Assembly (NCBI RefSeq): GCF_014252955.1
Contig: NZ_JACMIA010000001.1
Location: forward strand, 62,001 to 126,000
Direction of reading: 5' to 3'
From: Stappia sp. 28M-7
Lineage (GTDB): Bacteria > Pseudomonadota > Alphaproteobacteria > Rhizobiales > Stappiaceae
Length of the DNA stretch: 64,000 nucleotides
Shown here: piece by piece, positions 25,674 through 32,530 of the stretch
Position numbering within the stretch: position 1 is the first letter of the stretch
Layout of the letters: the number at the start of each line of letters is the position of its first letter
Translations under genes and position numbers: made by a program
Notes under the pieces: model-generated
Told to the model about the DNA's origin: nothing
Databases searched by the model: none
What the model saw: the letters and a program-made list of their open reading frames with translations, nothing else

Positions 25674-26108
25674 TCATCCGGGCGGCAGTTCCAGACGGCG
25701 CAGCGGGTCGCCTCCGTCGATGTAAAGTGCGCCGCCGGGCACGAGGGCGGCTGCGATGTTCCGTAGCGCCCGCTCGGCCAGCTGCGGGTGCCGGCCATCG
25801 AGTGCGCCGACCCGAATCGCGACGGCGAGATCGAAGAGCGGGTCTTCGGGGGGCAGGGCAAAGTCCTCCACTGCCGCCTGCCGAAGCTGCAGGCGTCCGG
25901 CCCGGACCTCCCCGGCGCAGGCAGCTCGTGCCTGGGCGATTGCCGTTGCGCTGCGATCCAGCGCCAGAACCGTGCCGTCGCCGATCCGTCCGCATATCGC
26001 GCGTGCCAGCGCGCCCGGGCCGCAGCCGATCTCCAGCACCCGCAGTCCGGGCCGCAGCGGCAGGGCCTCGGCGATGGCTGCCAGCCGGGGCGAGAGTCCT
26101 GCGGGCAT
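25674..26108 (-). CDS. Class I SAM-dependent methyltransferase
   Basis: This short (144-residue) protein has the SAM-binding core: motif I VLEIGCGPGALARAI (about 24-38), an acidic motif II in VLALDRSATAI and a motif near FDLAVAIRVGA (about 93). GGGAGG precedes the ATG at 26108. It lacks additional substrate-binding domains, so substrate cannot be guessed. It is divergent from the SOS operon, with a 22-bp inverted repeat at 26213-26234 between them. Confidence 0.8.
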   Translation of the reverse strand: MPAGLSPRLAAIAEALPLRPGLRVLEIGCGPGALARAICGRIGDGTVLALDRSATAIAQARAACAGEVRAGRLQLRQAAVEDFALPPEDPLFDLAVAIRVGALDGRHPQLAERALRNIAAALVPGGALYIDGGDPLRRLELPPG

Positions 26109-26212
26109 GATACGCCTCCCTTCAGGGGCCGGCGCTTCCTGCGCGCCGGCAGCTGCAGTGTGGTGAAATTTCCGGTTGCGGTCGAGGAGAACGCTGCGTC
26201 CTGTAGCCTGAA

Positions 26213-26234
26213 TTGATTCATGTTTTTGAATCAA
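26213..26234. repeat. 22-bp inverted repeat, possible operator
   Basis: TTGATTCA (26213-26220) and TGAATCAA (26227-26234) are perfect 8-bp arms around 6 bp. It lies between the divergent methyltransferase and glycosylase genes, about 105 bp from the former, and is distinct from the LexA box. Confidence 0.45.
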
Positions 26235-26274
26235 TGCGATGGCCGAAAACCGCCTGGCGGCCTGCAGACTCATG

Positions 26275-26303
26275 TTGCGTTTGTTCTTATTTTGTTCTTT
26301 CAT
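26275..26303 (+). promoter_or_regulatory. SOS (LexA) box within a promoter
   Basis: GTTCTTATTTTGTTC (26283-26297) matches the alphaproteobacterial LexA consensus GTTC-N7-GTTC exactly. It fills the 17-bp spacer between a possible -35 (TTGCGT, 26275-26280) and -10 (TTTCAT, 26298-26303), so LexA would block the polymerase. The likely start of transcription falls at or near the ATG at 26310. Confidence 0.8.
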
Positions 26304-26309
26304 TCGGGC

Positions 26310-27008
26310 ATGCAATACACGTTGCCGCTCGTTGCCGATACCCGCCTTGCGCGGGTCCACGAACTGTTGCTCGACCGGTTCGGTCCGGTGCCGGAATGCT
26401 ACCGGCTCGACCCGGTGAGCCAGCTCGTTTTCGCAATGCTCAGCGGCCGGACACGGGATGCGGTCGCCATGGAGGTCTTTGCAGCGCTGGCCCGCAGGAT
26501 GGGCGCATGGGAGCGGCTGGCGGAAACGGCGGCGAGCGAGCTGCAAGGCATCATCGCTACAGTGACCTTCGCCGAGCGCAAGGCGCGGCAGATCCCGGCG
26601 GCCCTGCGCGAGATCGCGGCCCGGCGCGGGCGGCTGGACCTGGAGTTTCTTGCCCAATGGCCGGTGGAGGAGGGGCGGGTCTGGCTGGAGAGCCTGACCG
26701 GCGTCGGTCCCAAGACCAGCATGGCAGTGCTTGGCCTGAGCACGCTGCGCCGGCGGGTGCTGATGGTCGATACGGCCCATAACCGGGTCGCCTGCCGGCT
26801 GGGACTGGTGCCGGCACGGGCCGACATTGCCCGTGCCACGCGGCTGCTCAACCGGCAATTGCCTGCCGCATGGACGGCCGACGACACGGAAAGCCACCAT
26901 TTCCTGATGCAGGGGCTGGGTCGCAGCCATTGCGTCTACAGGCAGCCGCTTTGCCCGGACTGCCCGTTGTGCCGCCTCTGCCGGTCGATGCCGGAGGGGC
27001 GGGCATGA
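26310..27008 (+). CDS. Endonuclease III-like HhH-GPD DNA glycosylase, first gene of the SOS operon
   Basis: This 232-residue protein belongs to the endonuclease III superfamily. The helix-hairpin-helix reads LTGVGPKTSMAVLGL with the catalytic lysine, followed by VDTAHNR with the catalytic aspartate. The C-terminus has Cys-x6-Cys-x2-Cys-x5-Cys (HCVYRQPLCPDCPLCRLC), which holds a [4Fe-4S] cluster. It should remove damaged bases. I use the ATG at 26310, because a longer frame from 26220 would run through the LexA box. It overlaps imuA by 4 bp (ATGA), so it is part of the SOS mutasome operon rather than the housekeeping nth. Confidence 0.85.
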   Translation: MQYTLPLVADTRLARVHELLLDRFGPVPECYRLDPVSQLVFAMLSGRTRDAVAMEVFAALARRMGAWERLAETAASELQGIIATVTFAERKARQIPAALREIAARRGRLDLEFLAQWPVEEGRVWLESLTGVGPKTSMAVLGLSTLRRRVLMVDTAHNRVACRLGLVPARADIARATRLLNRQLPAAWTADDTESHHFLMQGLGRSHCVYRQPLCPDCPLCRLCRSMPEGRA

Positions 27009-27808
27009 GGGACGGCGAGACGCTGGCGGCGCTGCGCGCCCGCATCAAGGCAGGCGGGCTGGACGAGGAGCTGGCCTGGCCGACGGTCGGGCTGGCCGCG
27101 GAGGTAGAGACGGAGACGCACGGCGCGGTGCTGCCCGGCGGACTGGCGAGCGGGGCTCTGCACGAGTTGCAGCCGGCGACGCCGGCCGATATCGGGGCGG
27201 CGACCGGGTTTGCGCTGGGGCTGGCCTCGCGGCTGCTGGCACAGCGTCCGGGGCCCTTGCTGTGGGGGCTGCCGTCGACGCGGGGCTGGCGCGAAGGCCG
27301 GCTCTATCCGGTCGGGCTCGGCGCCTTCGGCATCGATCCGGACCGGGTGGTCCAGGTCGAGGTGAAGAAGACCGCCGACCTCCTGTGGAGCCTGGAGGAG
27401 GCGCTGGATCACCCTTCGCTTGCCGTCGTCGTCGGCCTGCTGCCCGAAGGCGACCGGCTCTACGACTTCACGGCAAGCCGAAGGCTGGCGATGCGCGCCG
27501 CCCGCCACGGGGCGACGGTGCTGCTGCTGGGGGCGGCGCCGGTCTTCGACATGGCAACGGCCGCCTCCACCCGCTGGTCGCTGGCGGCGCTGGCCAGCCG
27601 GCCGGCGCCCCATATCGGTCAGGCGGTGCCCGGCCTCGGCCCGCCGCGCTGGCAGGCCCGGCTGGTGAAATCGCGCAAGGGCCTCCTGGATGCCTGGGAT
27701 CTCGAGTGGAACCATGAAACGCTGTCTTTCCGTCTGGCTGCCCCGCTGGCCGACAGAGCGCCGCTCCGCCGGACCGGCGGACTCTCGCGGCGGCCGACTG
27801 CCGCCTGA
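27005..27808 (+). CDS. imuA: ImuA, RecA-like mutasome accessory protein
   Basis: This 267-residue protein is a RecA/SulA-related accessory factor of the ImuA-ImuB-DnaE2 translesion complex. Family features seen: HELQPATPADIGAATGFAL near residues 53-71, a degenerate nucleotide-binding region PLLWGLPSTRGWREGRLYPVGL and a core with VVVGLLPEGDRLYDFTASRRL (about 142-160). The start overlaps the stop of the glycosylase gene. The 3' end overlaps the imuB start by 95 bp. Confidence 0.88.
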   Translation: MRDGETLAALRARIKAGGLDEELAWPTVGLAAEVETETHGAVLPGGLASGALHELQPATPADIGAATGFALGLASRLLAQRPGPLLWGLPSTRGWREGRLYPVGLGAFGIDPDRVVQVEVKKTADLLWSLEEALDHPSLAVVVGLLPEGDRLYDFTASRRLAMRAARHGATVLLLGAAPVFDMATAASTRWSLAALASRPAPHIGQAVPGLGPPRWQARLVKSRKGLLDAWDLEWNHETLSFRLAAPLADRAPLRRTGGLSRRPTAA

Positions 27809-29288
27809 CGAGGCCGGTCCTCTCGTGCTCTCCGTGCTGGAGCAGAACGGGGCAAGGGTCAGTGCGGTCAACGCGCCCGCCGCCGCGCTCGGCTTGAGAC
27901 CGGGAATGCCGCTGGCCGATGCGCGCGCGATCCATCCCGCGCTCGGTGTCGCGCCGGCGGACCCGGACGGTGATGCGCAAGGACTGCGCCGGCTCGCCCT
28001 GTGGTGCCAGCGCTACAGCCCGCTGACCCGCATCGATGCGCCGGACGGGGTGTCCATCGACATTGCCGGCTGCGCCCATCTGTTCGGCGGCGAAGCGGCG
28101 CTGATGACGGATCTCGCCGACCGGCTGCACGGCTTCGGGCTGACCGCGCGGCTGGCCCTTGCGCCGACGCTCGGGGCGGCCTGGGCGCTCGCCCGCCATG
28201 GCGACACGCAGATGGTACAGGTGGCGCCGGGCGAGGTGGGCGAGGTGCTGGCGCCGCTGCCCGTTGCGGCCCTGCGCATCGAGGCGGAAACGGTGCGCGC
28301 GCTGGAACGGCTCGGCCTCGACCGGATCGGCCTTCTGGTCGGCAAGCCGCGTGCGCCGCTCGCCGGCCGCTTCGGCCCGCAGCTGGTCCTGCGGCTCGAC
28401 CAGGCGCTGGGGCGCGAGGGCGAGCGGTTCGACCCTGTGGAGGCTGCGCCCGTCTACCGAATCGCCCGCAATTTCGCCGAGCCGGTGTCGACGCTGGAGG
28501 CCATCGGCGAGGTGGCCGCGCGGCTGACCGGGGAGCTTGCCGAGATGCTGCAGGGCCTCGGCAAGGCGGCGCGGCGGGTGGAGCTGGCGCTCTATCGCGT
28601 CGACGGCTGGCGCGAGGCGCTGGAGCTGCGCATCACCCGGCCGAGCAACGATCCTGCGCATTTGCTGCGCCTGCTGGGCGAGCGGCTCGACCGGCTGCGC
28701 GATCATGCCGGCTTCGGTTTCGAGGCGGCGGTGCTTTCCGCCTTCGAGGTGGAGCGCGCCGAGGCGGTGCAGGCGGCGCTGTCGGGACGCGGGCACGCCC
28801 AGCCGCCGGCGGACGATCTCGACCGGCTGCTCGACCGGCTGGTCAACCGCTTCGGGCCCGAGCGCGTCTCCCGCTTCGTACCGCGCGAAAGCCACGTGCC
28901 GGAGCGTTCCTGCCATCCGGTTTCGGCGCTTGCGCAGGTGGCCCGCCATGACTGGACCGCCCATGGCCGCGCCCTCCATGGCGGCACCGCGCTTGCCCGT
29001 CCGCCGCTGCTGTTCGCGCGTCCCGAACCGGTGGAGGTACTGGTGGAGATGCCGGACAAGCCGCCGGCGCGCTTCGAGTGGCGGCGCACCGCGCACCGCA
29101 TCGTGCGGGCGGAAGGGCCGGAGCGGATCGCGCCGGAATGGTGGGCCGGCGGCGAGGCCAATCGGCTGACGCGCGACTATTACCGCGTCGAGGACGCGGA
29201 AGGGCGGCGTTTCTGGCTGTTCCGCGAAGGCCTCTATGATCGGCCCGGCGATACGGTGCGCTGGTTCGTACATGGGCTGTTCGCATGA
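27714..29288 (+). CDS. imuB: ImuB, Y-family polymerase-like mutasome protein
   Basis: This 524-residue protein is a Y-family polymerase homologue that has lost catalytic acidic residues and acts as a hub between the beta clamp and DnaE2. The N-terminus (MKRCLSVWLPRWPTER) keeps the family fold but replaces the catalytic acidic FYASVE-type motif, and SIDIAGCAHLFGG keeps only part of the second. The helix-hairpin and little-finger regions follow (about 185-340). The start at 27714 is inside imuA, a 95-bp overlap in another frame. It overlaps dnaE2 by 4 bp. Confidence 0.88.
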   Translation: MKRCLSVWLPRWPTERRSAGPADSRGGRLPPDEAGPLVLSVLEQNGARVSAVNAPAAALGLRPGMPLADARAIHPALGVAPADPDGDAQGLRRLALWCQRYSPLTRIDAPDGVSIDIAGCAHLFGGEAALMTDLADRLHGFGLTARLALAPTLGAAWALARHGDTQMVQVAPGEVGEVLAPLPVAALRIEAETVRALERLGLDRIGLLVGKPRAPLAGRFGPQLVLRLDQALGREGERFDPVEAAPVYRIARNFAEPVSTLEAIGEVAARLTGELAEMLQGLGKAARRVELALYRVDGWREALELRITRPSNDPAHLLRLLGERLDRLRDHAGFGFEAAVLSAFEVERAEAVQAALSGRGHAQPPADDLDRLLDRLVNRFGPERVSRFVPRESHVPERSCHPVSALAQVARHDWTAHGRALHGGTALARPPLLFARPEPVEVLVEMPDKPPARFEWRRTAHRIVRAEGPERIAPEWWAGGEANRLTRDYYRVEDAEGRRFWLFREGLYDRPGDTVRWFVHGLFA

Positions 29289-32200
29289 CGGCAGCCTTCG
29301 CGGAACTGGTGGCGACCAGCAATTTCAGCTTCCTGCGCGGCGCCTCCCATGCGGCGGAGCTGGTGGAGACGGCGGCCCGCCTCGGCCTTGCCGCCATCGG
29401 CATCGCCGACCGCAACACGCTGGCCGGCGTCGTGCGGGCGCATGTGGCCGCGCGCGAGCACGGCGTGCGCCTGATCGTCGGGGCGCGGCTGGTGCTGCGC
29501 GACGGGTTGGAACTGGTCGTCCATCCGCAGGACCGGGAGGCCTATGGCCGGCTGAGCCGCCTGCTCACCCTCGGCAACCGGCGGGCGCCGAAAGGGGAAT
29601 GCCATCTCGATTTCGCCGACCTGGGTGAACTCGGCGAGGGTCAGCAGCTCATCGCCCTGCCGCCGCGCTGGCCCGATGCGGACTTCGCCGAACGTCTTGC
29701 GGAACTGGGACGCCGGTTCCCCGATGCCGTTTCGCTGGCGCTGTCGCCGGCCCATCGCGGCGACGACCGGGCCCGCTTCGACCGGCTGGCGGAGCTGGCC
29801 GAGACCTGTCGCACGCCGCTGATCGCCACCAACGACGTGCTCTATCACGTGCCCGAACGGCGTCCCTTGCAGGATGTGCTCACCTGCATCCGCGAGCATT
29901 TGACCATCGATACGGCCGGCTTCCTGCTGGAGCCGAATGCGGAGCGGCATCTGAAGCCGCCGCAGGAAATGGCGCGGCTCCTGTCGGGCCATGAACAGGC
30001 GCTGGAGCGCAGCTTAGAGGTCGCCGGCCGGTGCCGGTTCAGCCTCGACGAACTGAAGCCGCACTATCCGGACGAGCCGGCGGGCGAGAGCGCGACGCCG
30101 CAGGAGGAGCTGGAGCGGCTGGCCTGGCTGGGCGCCGACAACCGGTTTCCGCAAGGCATTCCGGGGGGTGTGCATGCGAACATCGCGCGCGAGCTGCGGC
30201 TGATCGGCGAGCTCGACTTCGCGTCCTACTTTCTCACCGTCTACGACATCGTCCGCTTCGCCCGCAGCCAGGATCCGCCGATCCTCTGCCAGGGACGCGG
30301 GTCCTCGGCCAATTCCGTCGTCTGCTATTGCCTCGGCATCACCTCGGTCAATCCGACCGAGATCGACCTCTTGTTCGAGCGCTTCGTGTCGTCGGCGCGC
30401 GGCGAGCCGCCGGACATCGACGTCGATTTCGAGCACGAGCGGCGCGAGGAGGTGATCCAGTACATCTATGCCCGCTATGGCCGCGAGCGTGCCGGCCTTG
30501 CCGCGACGGTGATCCGCTATCGCGCCCGCAGCGCCGTCAATGACGTCGGCAAGGCGATGGGTCTGTCGACCGACGTGGTCGGCGCCATGTCCGGCCTGAT
30601 CTGGGGCTGGTCGGGGAGCGCGCCGGCAGAAAGCGAAATCCGCCAGGCGGGGCTCGATGCGCGCGATCCCCGCTTGATGCAGACGATCCGGCTGGTCCGC
30701 CAGCTGATCGACTTCCCCCGCCACCTGTCGCAGCATGTCGGCGGGTTCGTCATTACCCGCGAGCGCCTCGACGAAGTGGTCCCGATCGCCAATGCGGCGA
30801 TGGAGGACCGCACGGTGGTGGAATGGGACAAGGACGATCTCGATGCGCTCGGCATCCTCAAGGTCGATGTGCTGGCGCTCGGCATGCTGACCTGCCTGCG
30901 CAAGTGCTTCGACCTGCTGCGTGGCCATTACGGGCGCGACATGGGGCTGGCCAGCGTGCCGCGCGACGATCCGGCGACCTATGCGATGATCCAGAAGGCC
31001 GACACGGTCGGCGTCTTCCAGATCGAGAGCCGGGCGCAGATGTCGATGCTGCCGCGCCTCAGGCCCGCAAACTTCTACGATCTCGTCGTGCAGATCGCCA
31101 TCGTCCGGCCCGGCCCGATCCAGGGCAACATGGTCAATCCCTACCTGCAGCGGCGCAAGCACCCGGAGCTGGTGGACTATCCCTCACCTGAACTTGAGGC
31201 CGTGCTTAAGAAGACGCTGGGCGTGCCGTTGTTCCAGGAACAGGCGATGAAGATCGCCATCGTCGGCGCCGGGTTTTCGCCGGACGAGGCGGACCGGTTG
31301 CGCCGGGCGATGGCCTCCTTCCGCAATATCGGCACGATCGAGCAGTTCCGCGAAAAGTTCATCGCCGGAATGATCGCGAACAGGTACCAGCCGGACTTCG
31401 CCGACCGCTGCTTCGAGCAGATCAAGGGCTTCAGCGATTACGGGTTTCCCGAAAGCCATTCGGCAAGCTTTGCCCTGCTTGCCTATGCCTCCTCCTGGCT
31501 CAAGTGCCACTATCCGGAGGTCTTCGCCTGTGCGTTGCTGAACTCGCAGCCGATGGGCTTCTATTCCTCGGCCTCCATCGTGCGGGACCTGCGCGCCCAT
31601 GGGGGACGCGTGCTGCCGGTGGATGTCAATCACAGCGACTGGGACCACACGCTGGAGGATGAGGAGCCTCCCGCTCGCAAGACGGGGGCTGAGGGCGGCA
31701 ATGCCTTCGCCCTGCGGCTCGGCCTGCGCCAGGTCGACGGCTTGAGCGAGGAGGCGGGGCAGGCGCTGGTTGCCGCCCGTGGCATGGGCTTTACGGATCT
31801 GGCCGACCTGCATGGAAGGGCCTGCCTCGACAGCCGGGCGCTGGTGGCGCTGGCCAATGCGGACGCCTTCCGCTCGTTCGGCCTCGACCGGCGGCAGGCC
31901 CTGTGGGAGATCAAGGGACTGGCCGGCCGCCTCGGCCGCGCTGCCCGTCAGGACGACCTGCCGCTGTTCGGCGGCCGAAAGGGGCTGGCCGTTCTTGTCG
32001 CGAGGGAAGAGCAGGTGGAGCTACCGCCCATGCGGCCGGGCGAGCATGTTGTGGAGGACTACGCGACCTTGCACCTGTCGCTGAAGGCGCATCCCTTCGC
32101 CTTCCTGCGCGGGCAGCTCGAGGCCCGCCGCAGCTTGCGCGCGGCCGATCTGGAGGCGCAGGGCAACGGCCGGTTCGTGCGGGTCGCCGGCCTCGTTCTG

Positions 32201-32530
32201 GTGCGCCAGCGGCCGCAGACGGCCAAGAGCGTCACTTTCCTGACGCTGGAGGACGAGACGGGCATCGCCAATATCGTGGTCTGGAGCCGGATCTTCGAGC
32301 GCAGCCGCCGGATCGTCATGGGCGCGCGTGCCGTCATGGTGGATGGCGCGATCCAGAAGGAGGACGGCGTCATCCATGTGGTGGCGCGGCAGCTCACCGA
32401 CATCACGCCGGATCTGATGGCCTCGCTTTCGAAAGAACCGCCGCAGGAGGGGCCGAAACTTTCGGGGGCGAGCCTGTGGCGGCACCCGCGCGACACGAGG
32501 GTGTTGCCGAAGGGGCGGAACTTCCACTGA
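29285..32530 (+). CDS. dnaE2: Error-prone DNA polymerase III alpha subunit DnaE2
   Basis: This 1081-residue polymerase performs damage-induced mutagenic synthesis together with ImuA and ImuB. It has an N-terminal PHP domain (from AELVATSNFSFLRGASHAAEL), the palm with the catalytic acidic residues in PPDIDVDFEHERREEV (about 378-393), fingers with the QHVGGFVITRE motif, a helix-hairpin-helix region and a C-terminal OB fold (about 955-1040: VRVAGLVLVRQRPQTAKSVTFLTLEDETG). Length fits DnaE2 rather than replicative DnaE1 (about 1160). It is the last gene of the SOS operon. 24 bp separate it from the convergent DHFR-like gene. Confidence 0.93.
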   Translation: MTAAFAELVATSNFSFLRGASHAAELVETAARLGLAAIGIADRNTLAGVVRAHVAAREHGVRLIVGARLVLRDGLELVVHPQDREAYGRLSRLLTLGNRRAPKGECHLDFADLGELGEGQQLIALPPRWPDADFAERLAELGRRFPDAVSLALSPAHRGDDRARFDRLAELAETCRTPLIATNDVLYHVPERRPLQDVLTCIREHLTIDTAGFLLEPNAERHLKPPQEMARLLSGHEQALERSLEVAGRCRFSLDELKPHYPDEPAGESATPQEELERLAWLGADNRFPQGIPGGVHANIARELRLIGELDFASYFLTVYDIVRFARSQDPPILCQGRGSSANSVVCYCLGITSVNPTEIDLLFERFVSSARGEPPDIDVDFEHERREEVIQYIYARYGRERAGLAATVIRYRARSAVNDVGKAMGLSTDVVGAMSGLIWGWSGSAPAESEIRQAGLDARDPRLMQTIRLVRQLIDFPRHLSQHVGGFVITRERLDEVVPIANAAMEDRTVVEWDKDDLDALGILKVDVLALGMLTCLRKCFDLLRGHYGRDMGLASVPRDDPATYAMIQKADTVGVFQIESRAQMSMLPRLRPANFYDLVVQIAIVRPGPIQGNMVNPYLQRRKHPELVDYPSPELEAVLKKTLGVPLFQEQAMKIAIVGAGFSPDEADRLRRAMASFRNIGTIEQFREKFIAGMIANRYQPDFADRCFEQIKGFSDYGFPESHSASFALLAYASSWLKCHYPEVFACALLNSQPMGFYSSASIVRDLRAHGGRVLPVDVNHSDWDHTLEDEEPPARKTGAEGGNAFALRLGLRQVDGLSEEAGQALVAARGMGFTDLADLHGRACLDSRALVALANADAFRSFGLDRRQALWEIKGLAGRLGRAARQDDLPLFGGRKGLAVLVAREEQVELPPMRPGEHVVEDYATLHLSLKAHPFAFLRGQLEARRSLRAADLEAQGNGRFVRVAGLVLVRQRPQTAKSVTFLTLEDETGIANIVVWSRIFERSRRIVMGARAVMVDGAIQKEDGVIHVVARQLTDITPDLMASLSKEPPQEGPKLSGASLWRHPRDTRVLPKGRNFH

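Follow-up and report, generated by a model that had tools for sequence, protein, structure and literature searches.

The mutasome genes of Caulobacter and other Proteobacteria form an SOS operon in which imuA, imuB and dnaE2 follow one another in that order, with a LexA-type box upstream (PMC1839093 and PMC3765255, in the sections available to us). Extended cassettes to which extra SOS genes have been joined are also described, such as lexA-imuA-imuB-dnaE2 and operons with SRAP/DUF159 neighbours, and the Deinococcus lexA-imuY-imuB-C-dnaE2 cassette is likewise extended (excerpts of PMC3765255 and PMC8072749). Deinococcus also has endonuclease III (EndoIII) proteins that bear on the present locus. 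According to portions of PMC9268735, DrEndoIII1 has Arg61 at the wedge place, is mostly monofunctional and can process single-stranded DNA, and DrEndoIII3 keeps the residues, yet no detectable activity was reported for it. Here we describe a locus of Stappia sp. 28M-7 in which an EndoIII-like gene stands between a LexA-type box and imuA. We consider it probable that this locus, a candidate at present, is a four-gene LexA-repressed mutasome operon with a damage-induced glycosylase. Coordinates are those of the window, the whole stretch of 64,000 nucleotides that was analysed, and G and L numbers denote genomes and loci, respectively.

A four-gene run on one strand

Four genes lie on the plus strand: an EndoIII-like HhH-GPD gene encoding 232 residues (gene 1, here nthL; 26310-27008), imuA (27005-27808, 267 residues), imuB (27714-29288) and dnaE2 (29285-32530, 1081 residues). 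As an earlier note on this DNA had claimed, gene 1 overlaps imuA, the overlap being the four nucleotides ATGA at 27005-27008; imuB and dnaE2 overlap in the same way (ATGA, 29285-29288). The dnaE2 product scored 1409.2 bits against PRK05672, the error-prone DNA polymerase family (cut-off 939). ImuA was assigned from its position, its relatives and a match to NCBIfam NF033429 that falls under the cut-off of 150 (31.2 bits, E 1.9e-7), and ImuB from the Pfam models IMS and IMS_C. The imuB start was inferred from MKRCLSVWLPRWP, which is near-identical in G003; a longer open reading frame begins at 27690. With Pfam models for DNA polymerase III alpha, IMS and HhH-GPD all matching genes of the run, it holds an ImuA-like protein, a Y-family-like ImuB and a DnaE2, and imuA has no box of its own. 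A class I methyltransferase-like frame on the minus strand (25674-26930) is divergent from the operon; its matches lie in its second half, and each of its 17 NCBIfam matches is under the cut-off of the model concerned.

The SOS box and the putative promoter

The sequence GTTCTTATTTTGTTC at 26283-26297 on the plus strand fits GTTC-N7-GTTC without mismatch and ends 12 bp before the gene 1 ATG at 26310, both of which the earlier note had stated correctly. By itself an exact match to eight letters is near chance and is weak evidence: the window holds two matches versus 1.03 expected (26 of 100 shuffles gave at least as many), and the genome holds 122 (58 + 64) versus 106 (51 + 55) for the reversed pattern. 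The box core is, however, kept in all six Stappia gene 1 orthologs, down to 66% protein identity, and the surrounding TTGCRTTTGTTC-N3-TTTTGTTCTTTCATTYGGGCATG stretch is also kept in all six, G006 lacking one G close to the ATG. In the upstream alignment of these genomes divergence sets in before about 26205. We also checked the box with spacer matrices trained on hand-picked boxes of other genomes (14 GAAC-oriented imu boxes plus 13 further boxes), having removed from the training sets every copy of the spacer found at the window box. Among the 100 own-genome matches listed (of 122) the spacer of the window box ranked first with both the all-box and the gene 1-type matrices and second with the imu GAAC-orientation matrix. 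As the core is conserved, the spacer ranks high and the same placement recurs before homologs in other families, we take the box to be more than a chance match and, judged by these comparisons, to be real.

A separate SOS box directly before imuA, which the earlier note had named as evidence against its reading, was absent: no second box with at most one mismatch in the eight core letters was found in either orientation in 26200-27100. The genome gave a single match each for LexA and RecA, and both lie close to an exact box. Hence LexA is encoded, lexA itself is boxed and GTTC-N7-GTTC lies at the putative promoter of the run, as expected of a LexA regulon member.

That promoter (26275-26303, plus strand) would consist of TTGCGT (26275-26280), a 17-nt spacer that contains the box (26281-26297) and TTTCAT (26298-26303), followed by 6 nt and the ATG. 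All six Stappia keep TTGCRT as the -35-like hexamer and have identical TTTCAT (-10-like) and start codon. By eye, the same layout is seen in ten of the twelve genomes in which the box begins 26-28 nt before gene 1 (the six Stappia, G629, G637, G725 and G987): a TTG-starting hexamer lies 17 nt ahead of a TTTCAT, TAGCAT, TTTATT or TATAGT hexamer that comes straight after the box. A strict promoter scan called no promoter at the window box, TTTCAT being without the required A at position 2. The plausible promoter of the earlier note thus stood as to its 17-bp spacing around the box and did not pass the strict scan; because the scan called none, our assignment comes from by-eye comparison of the conserved hexamers. 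Given the distance from promoter to ATG and no Shine-Dalgarno sequence clear to the eye, the gene 1 transcript probably starts at or near the ATG as a leaderless mRNA.

Gene 1 encodes an EndoIII-like protein of a separate clade

The gene 1 protein scored 40.5 bits against Pfam PF00730 (HhH-GPD; gathering cut-off 26.2), which places it in that superfamily, and 53.5 bits against TIGR01083 (nth), under the cut-off of 211.7. Its best NCBIfam match was NF053634 (MonDNAglycDR2438) at 95.4 bits, which at a cut-off of 400 does not make it a member, and its best PDB match was D. radiodurans EndoIII-1 (4unf; E 1.6e-22). The protein has the catalytic-type residues K135 and D154, [4Fe-4S]-type cysteines at 208, 215, 218 and 224, and Arg47 where Nth has its wedge Gln. 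In an alignment of 31 clade members the catalytic-type Lys and Asp were each present in 30, one member (G120) having Glu in place of the Lys, and almost every row long enough to cover the four cluster cysteines had them. The wedge residue was Arg in 25 of the 31, versus Gln in all 12 ordinary Nth proteins. A tree built from 31 of the 33 genomes that carry gene 1 (G002 and G307 were left out) set the clade apart from the 12 ordinary Nth (support 100/100), with long branches and little resolution in the backbone; the forms without a box fell into two groups.

Elsewhere in its own genome there is a second EndoIII copy, 28% identical to gene 1. The failure to reach the nth cut-off, the separate clade and this second copy together rule out gene 1 as the housekeeping nth; the label "endonuclease III-like" in the earlier note therefore holds for an EndoIII-like HhH-GPD protein and not for an ordinary nth. 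An AlphaFold model built with five close sequences had too little confidence to be of use (pLDDT 47.1, pTM 0.28). A phage origin was rejected, there being no match at E 1e-8 among 50,697 phage records. Four plasmid records match gene 1 at 33-44% identity. Two of these, from Azospirillum (L168 and L170), bear the annotation 'Fe-S cluster assembly protein HesB', which is probably a misnomer for this clade.

Gene 1 in other genomes

Orthologs of gene 1 were present in six of the 14 genomes of the genus that we searched (the genome of the window itself, four whose protein is 92-96% identical and one at 65-66%), and the named relatives that carry it are Stappia (four records). Profile searches with the clade at E 1e-30 gave 20 of 397 genomes in a draw from the order, 11 of 385 from the class and nine of 299 from the phylum, all nine of the latter from that same class. 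At E 1e-18 the class draw gave 12 genomes, including one ordinary Nth-like match; G223 (E 1.6e-19, 31% identity), which fails 1e-30, was dropped as ordinary Nth-like. The six Stappia and the profile-search draws together amount to 33 different carrier genomes. ImuB was present in all 27 non-Stappia carriers and all six Stappia carriers, a co-occurrence that is weak evidence because ImuB was also found in 52 of 61 relatives overall, including most of those lacking gene 1.

The exact box begins 26-48 nt before gene 1 in 17 of the 33 carriers (in 12 of these at 26-28 nt), where the genome-wide box density leads one to expect about 0.0014 per 60 bp. Gene 1 heads a box-imuA-imuB-dnaE2 operon in ten genomes of four families (the six Stappia, G539, G629, G637 and G725). 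The G725 contig ends within dnaE2, and its gene 1, which matches residues 1-167 alone, may have been cut short by decay or sequencing error. Seven genomes (G395, G378, G151, G120, G307, G689 and G987) have a boxed gene 1 with no imu gene in the fetched stretch. The homolog of G307 (L116, L074) is split between two frames, again by decay or sequencing error, and the imuB match of G395 (L178) contains one in-frame TGA. In four carriers (G534, G502, G562 and G608) gene 1 is instead the last gene, following dnaE2 in a boxed imuA-imuB-dnaE2 operon. Thus, as far as gene order can tell, gene 1 is a recurrent partner of imu operons that has been joined on either side, in two gene orders and in five families.

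The remaining 12 carriers, seven from a single genus together with G408, G105, G304, G205 and G994, have neither arrangement: there was no exact box up to 250 bp away, and the fetched stretch (flanks of at least 1.5 kb) contained no imu gene, which argues that the gene 1 family is not always SOS-linked. Three of them have a one-mismatch site more than 200 bp upstream of gene 1. The reverse complement of L109 (G408, 630-1202) reads exact box GAACAAATAGAGAAC, 158-residue open reading frame, gene 1 homolog; this box lies about 570 bp upstream with the frame between and was excluded from the boxed count, and the arrangement is possibly another SOS operon holding gene 1.

imuB loci and operon lineages

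An exact box lies upstream in each of the 30 imuB loci that we fetched from among the 52 genomes that gave a match. Read towards the genes, it is GAAC-N7-GAAC in the 24 loci without gene 1 and GTTC-N7-GTTC in the six Stappia with gene 1. In all 24 operons lacking gene 1 the box fronts imuA or imuB, and hence the Stappia box precedes an added gene, which bears out the statement of the earlier note that the box is placed before a fourth gene. A box in the GTTC orientation does not always come with gene 1: five further loci (L171, L175, L181, L182 and L183) show it although no gene 1 is nearby.

In a tree of 38 ImuB rows (the 30 fetched loci plus eight further operons, G009 being left out) the six gene 1-carrying Stappia lay away from five other Stappia, which grouped with several Stappiaceae. 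Another Stappia, G013, was placed elsewhere beside a further Stappiaceae row, and G001, also Stappia and on a long branch, sided with the gene-first operons at weak support (75/50). The gene-first state required three changes on this tree, at least two of them by well-supported branches. At least two imu operon lineages thus occur inside one genus (L077-L106), and the simplest reading of the tree would be that a native Stappia imu cassette was replaced by a foreign one.

GANTC sites upstream of imu boxes

Upstream of the box lies a 22-bp palindrome, TTGATTCA-N6-TGAATCAA (26213-26234, no strand assigned), that contains two GANTC sites (26215-26219 and 26228-26232). Its inner arms, GATTCA-N6-TGAATC, are kept in all six Stappia and have a single occurrence in the window's own genome. 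A third site, GACTC (26267-26271, likewise unstranded), begins 16 bp before the box, and all three (26215-26271) are invariant in the six Stappia although outside the box. At least one GANTC occurs in the 75 bp upstream of the box in 34 of 38 imu promoters (L077-L106 and L142-L149), or in 26 of 30 when near copies are removed. The density in those 75 bp is 26.3 per kb versus 1.12 per kb in the same loci, an enrichment of about 24-fold, the next palindromic pentamer being enriched 4.9-fold; 1001 of 15000 random 75-mers hold a GANTC. TTGACTC, which sets GANTC within a -35-like hexamer, is found in 21 of the 38 promoters. The four promoters that lack GANTC (G539, G629, G637 and G725) are all those of gene-first operons, so that among operons of this order only Stappia has the site. 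It was also present in nine of 14 further boxed imu loci (those left of 19 once four repeats of operons already counted and one unboxed locus were set aside) and in one of seven stand-alone gene 1 promoters, a distribution that follows the imu promoters and not the glycosylase.

The genome encodes two GcrA homologs, so that conserved upstream GANTC sites and GcrA are found together. Conserved GANTC promoters in Caulobacterales include that of imuA, which the available part of PMC7987155 attributes to a LexA motif that overlaps GANTC. That explanation, as given there, does not cover the present promoters, because GANTC overlaps the box in none of the 38, the upstream sites beginning 10-71 bp before it. 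In Agrobacterium depleted of CcrM, recA and three ImuA orthologs were raised (PMC11514494, in part), an effect that may be indirect. ChIP in Brucella placed lexA and uvrA among the GcrA targets, the damage induction of lexA being GcrA-independent (passages of PMC6813329). The enrichment of GANTC before imu operons allows a tie of SOS mutagenesis to the cell cycle via DNA methylation to be tested.

Discussion

We propose that LexA, bound at 26283-26297 within the spacer of the putative promoter, would repress a single four-gene transcript. Upon DNA damage RecA-driven cleavage of LexA would free the promoter, and the mRNA would begin at or beside the ATG. LexA control of the whole four-gene operon seems to us very likely, and the LexA-controlled extended mutasome operon of the earlier note gains support from the single box, the recurrence of the added gene and the boxes at lexA and recA. 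The glycosylase belongs to a separate clade, often SOS-boxed alone, that has been added to imu operons at one end or the other, and would most likely remove or incise damaged bases in DNA handled by ImuA-ImuB-DnaE2. It would perhaps do so in single-stranded gaps, since its wedge Arg is that of DrEndoIII1, which portions of PMC9268735 report to act on single-stranded DNA. That glycosylase action is coupled to translesion synthesis is a plausible proposal, which we hold tentatively.

A box arising by chance, with the operon driven from elsewhere or constitutively, would agree with pattern counts close to those of the controls and with a strict scan that called no promoter. Those counts alone would not reject chance. 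Conservation does so, as the box is kept in all six orthologs though the sequence further upstream diverges, every fetched imuB locus has an exact box and the window spacer scores high among the own-genome matches listed; hence a chance pattern is hardly credible. A second alternative concerns the protein, which might serve the mutasome as a DNA-binding subunit whose role is structural or non-enzymatic. The clade member with Glu at the catalytic Lys position would suit such a role, as would DrEndoIII3, which in the account of PMC9268735 accessible to us keeps its residues without detectable activity, but the near-invariance of Lys, Asp and the four cysteines across the clade makes it improbable.

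It is also possible, if somewhat doubtful, that the association is one of regulation alone: the box and promoter of an independent SOS glycosylase gene would have come to drive an adjacent imu operon by hitch-hiking, so that the two activities would have their timing in common and not their pathway. Consistent with this, seven carriers have a boxed gene 1 with no imu gene in the fetched stretch and ImuB elsewhere in the genome, and by eye their box and its distance resemble those of gene-first operons. However, the linkage is seen in two opposite orders and five families, and in the window the genes overlap by 4 nt; this points to more than a single accidental joining, and the changes to the gene-first state on the ImuB tree likewise argue against a purely regulatory association.

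Taking the locus as a four-gene LexA-repressed operon with a damage-induced glycosylase, the clade provides a concrete partner with which to test whether the ImuA-ImuB-DnaE2 mutasome is fed or counteracted by base excision. A bolder extension, which we consider rather unlikely, is a self-contained targeted-mutagenesis machine in which abasic sites, perhaps lying in single-stranded gaps, would be made or processed by the induced glycosylase and then passed to ImuA-ImuB-DnaE2, with GANTC methylation gating the operon to a cell-cycle stage. If true, such an operon would be a bacterial parallel to hypermutation by a glycosylase plus translesion synthesis.

A partnership of a glycosylase with an imu operon was not named in the titles and abstract openings returned by PMC full-text searches, which does not establish its absence from print, and the fourth gene is not described in an imu cassette in the sections obtained of PMC3765255, PMC1839093, PMC12926913 and PMC8072749. 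Compared with the Caulobacter-type cassette, Stappia has a fourth gene between box and imuA, and another genus has it after dnaE2. Compared with the extended cassettes, the extra gene is EndoIII-like rather than encoding a repressor, an SRAP protein or ImuB-C. The protein has in common with D. radiodurans EndoIII-1 (4unf) and NF053634 the Lys/Asp pair, the cluster cysteines and the wedge Arg, but lies well below the NF053634 cut-off. With Nth it has in common the HhH-GPD superfamily, the Lys/Asp pair and the [4Fe-4S]-type loop, from which it differs in its separate clade, in the change of wedge Gln to Arg and in its low score against the nth model. What this analysis adds is, first, that the fourth gene comes from a glycosylase-like clade which often has its own SOS box and which has been joined to imu operons in either of two gene orders, and second, that another conserved signal, GANTC, is present upstream in Stappia and most of the imu operons sampled.
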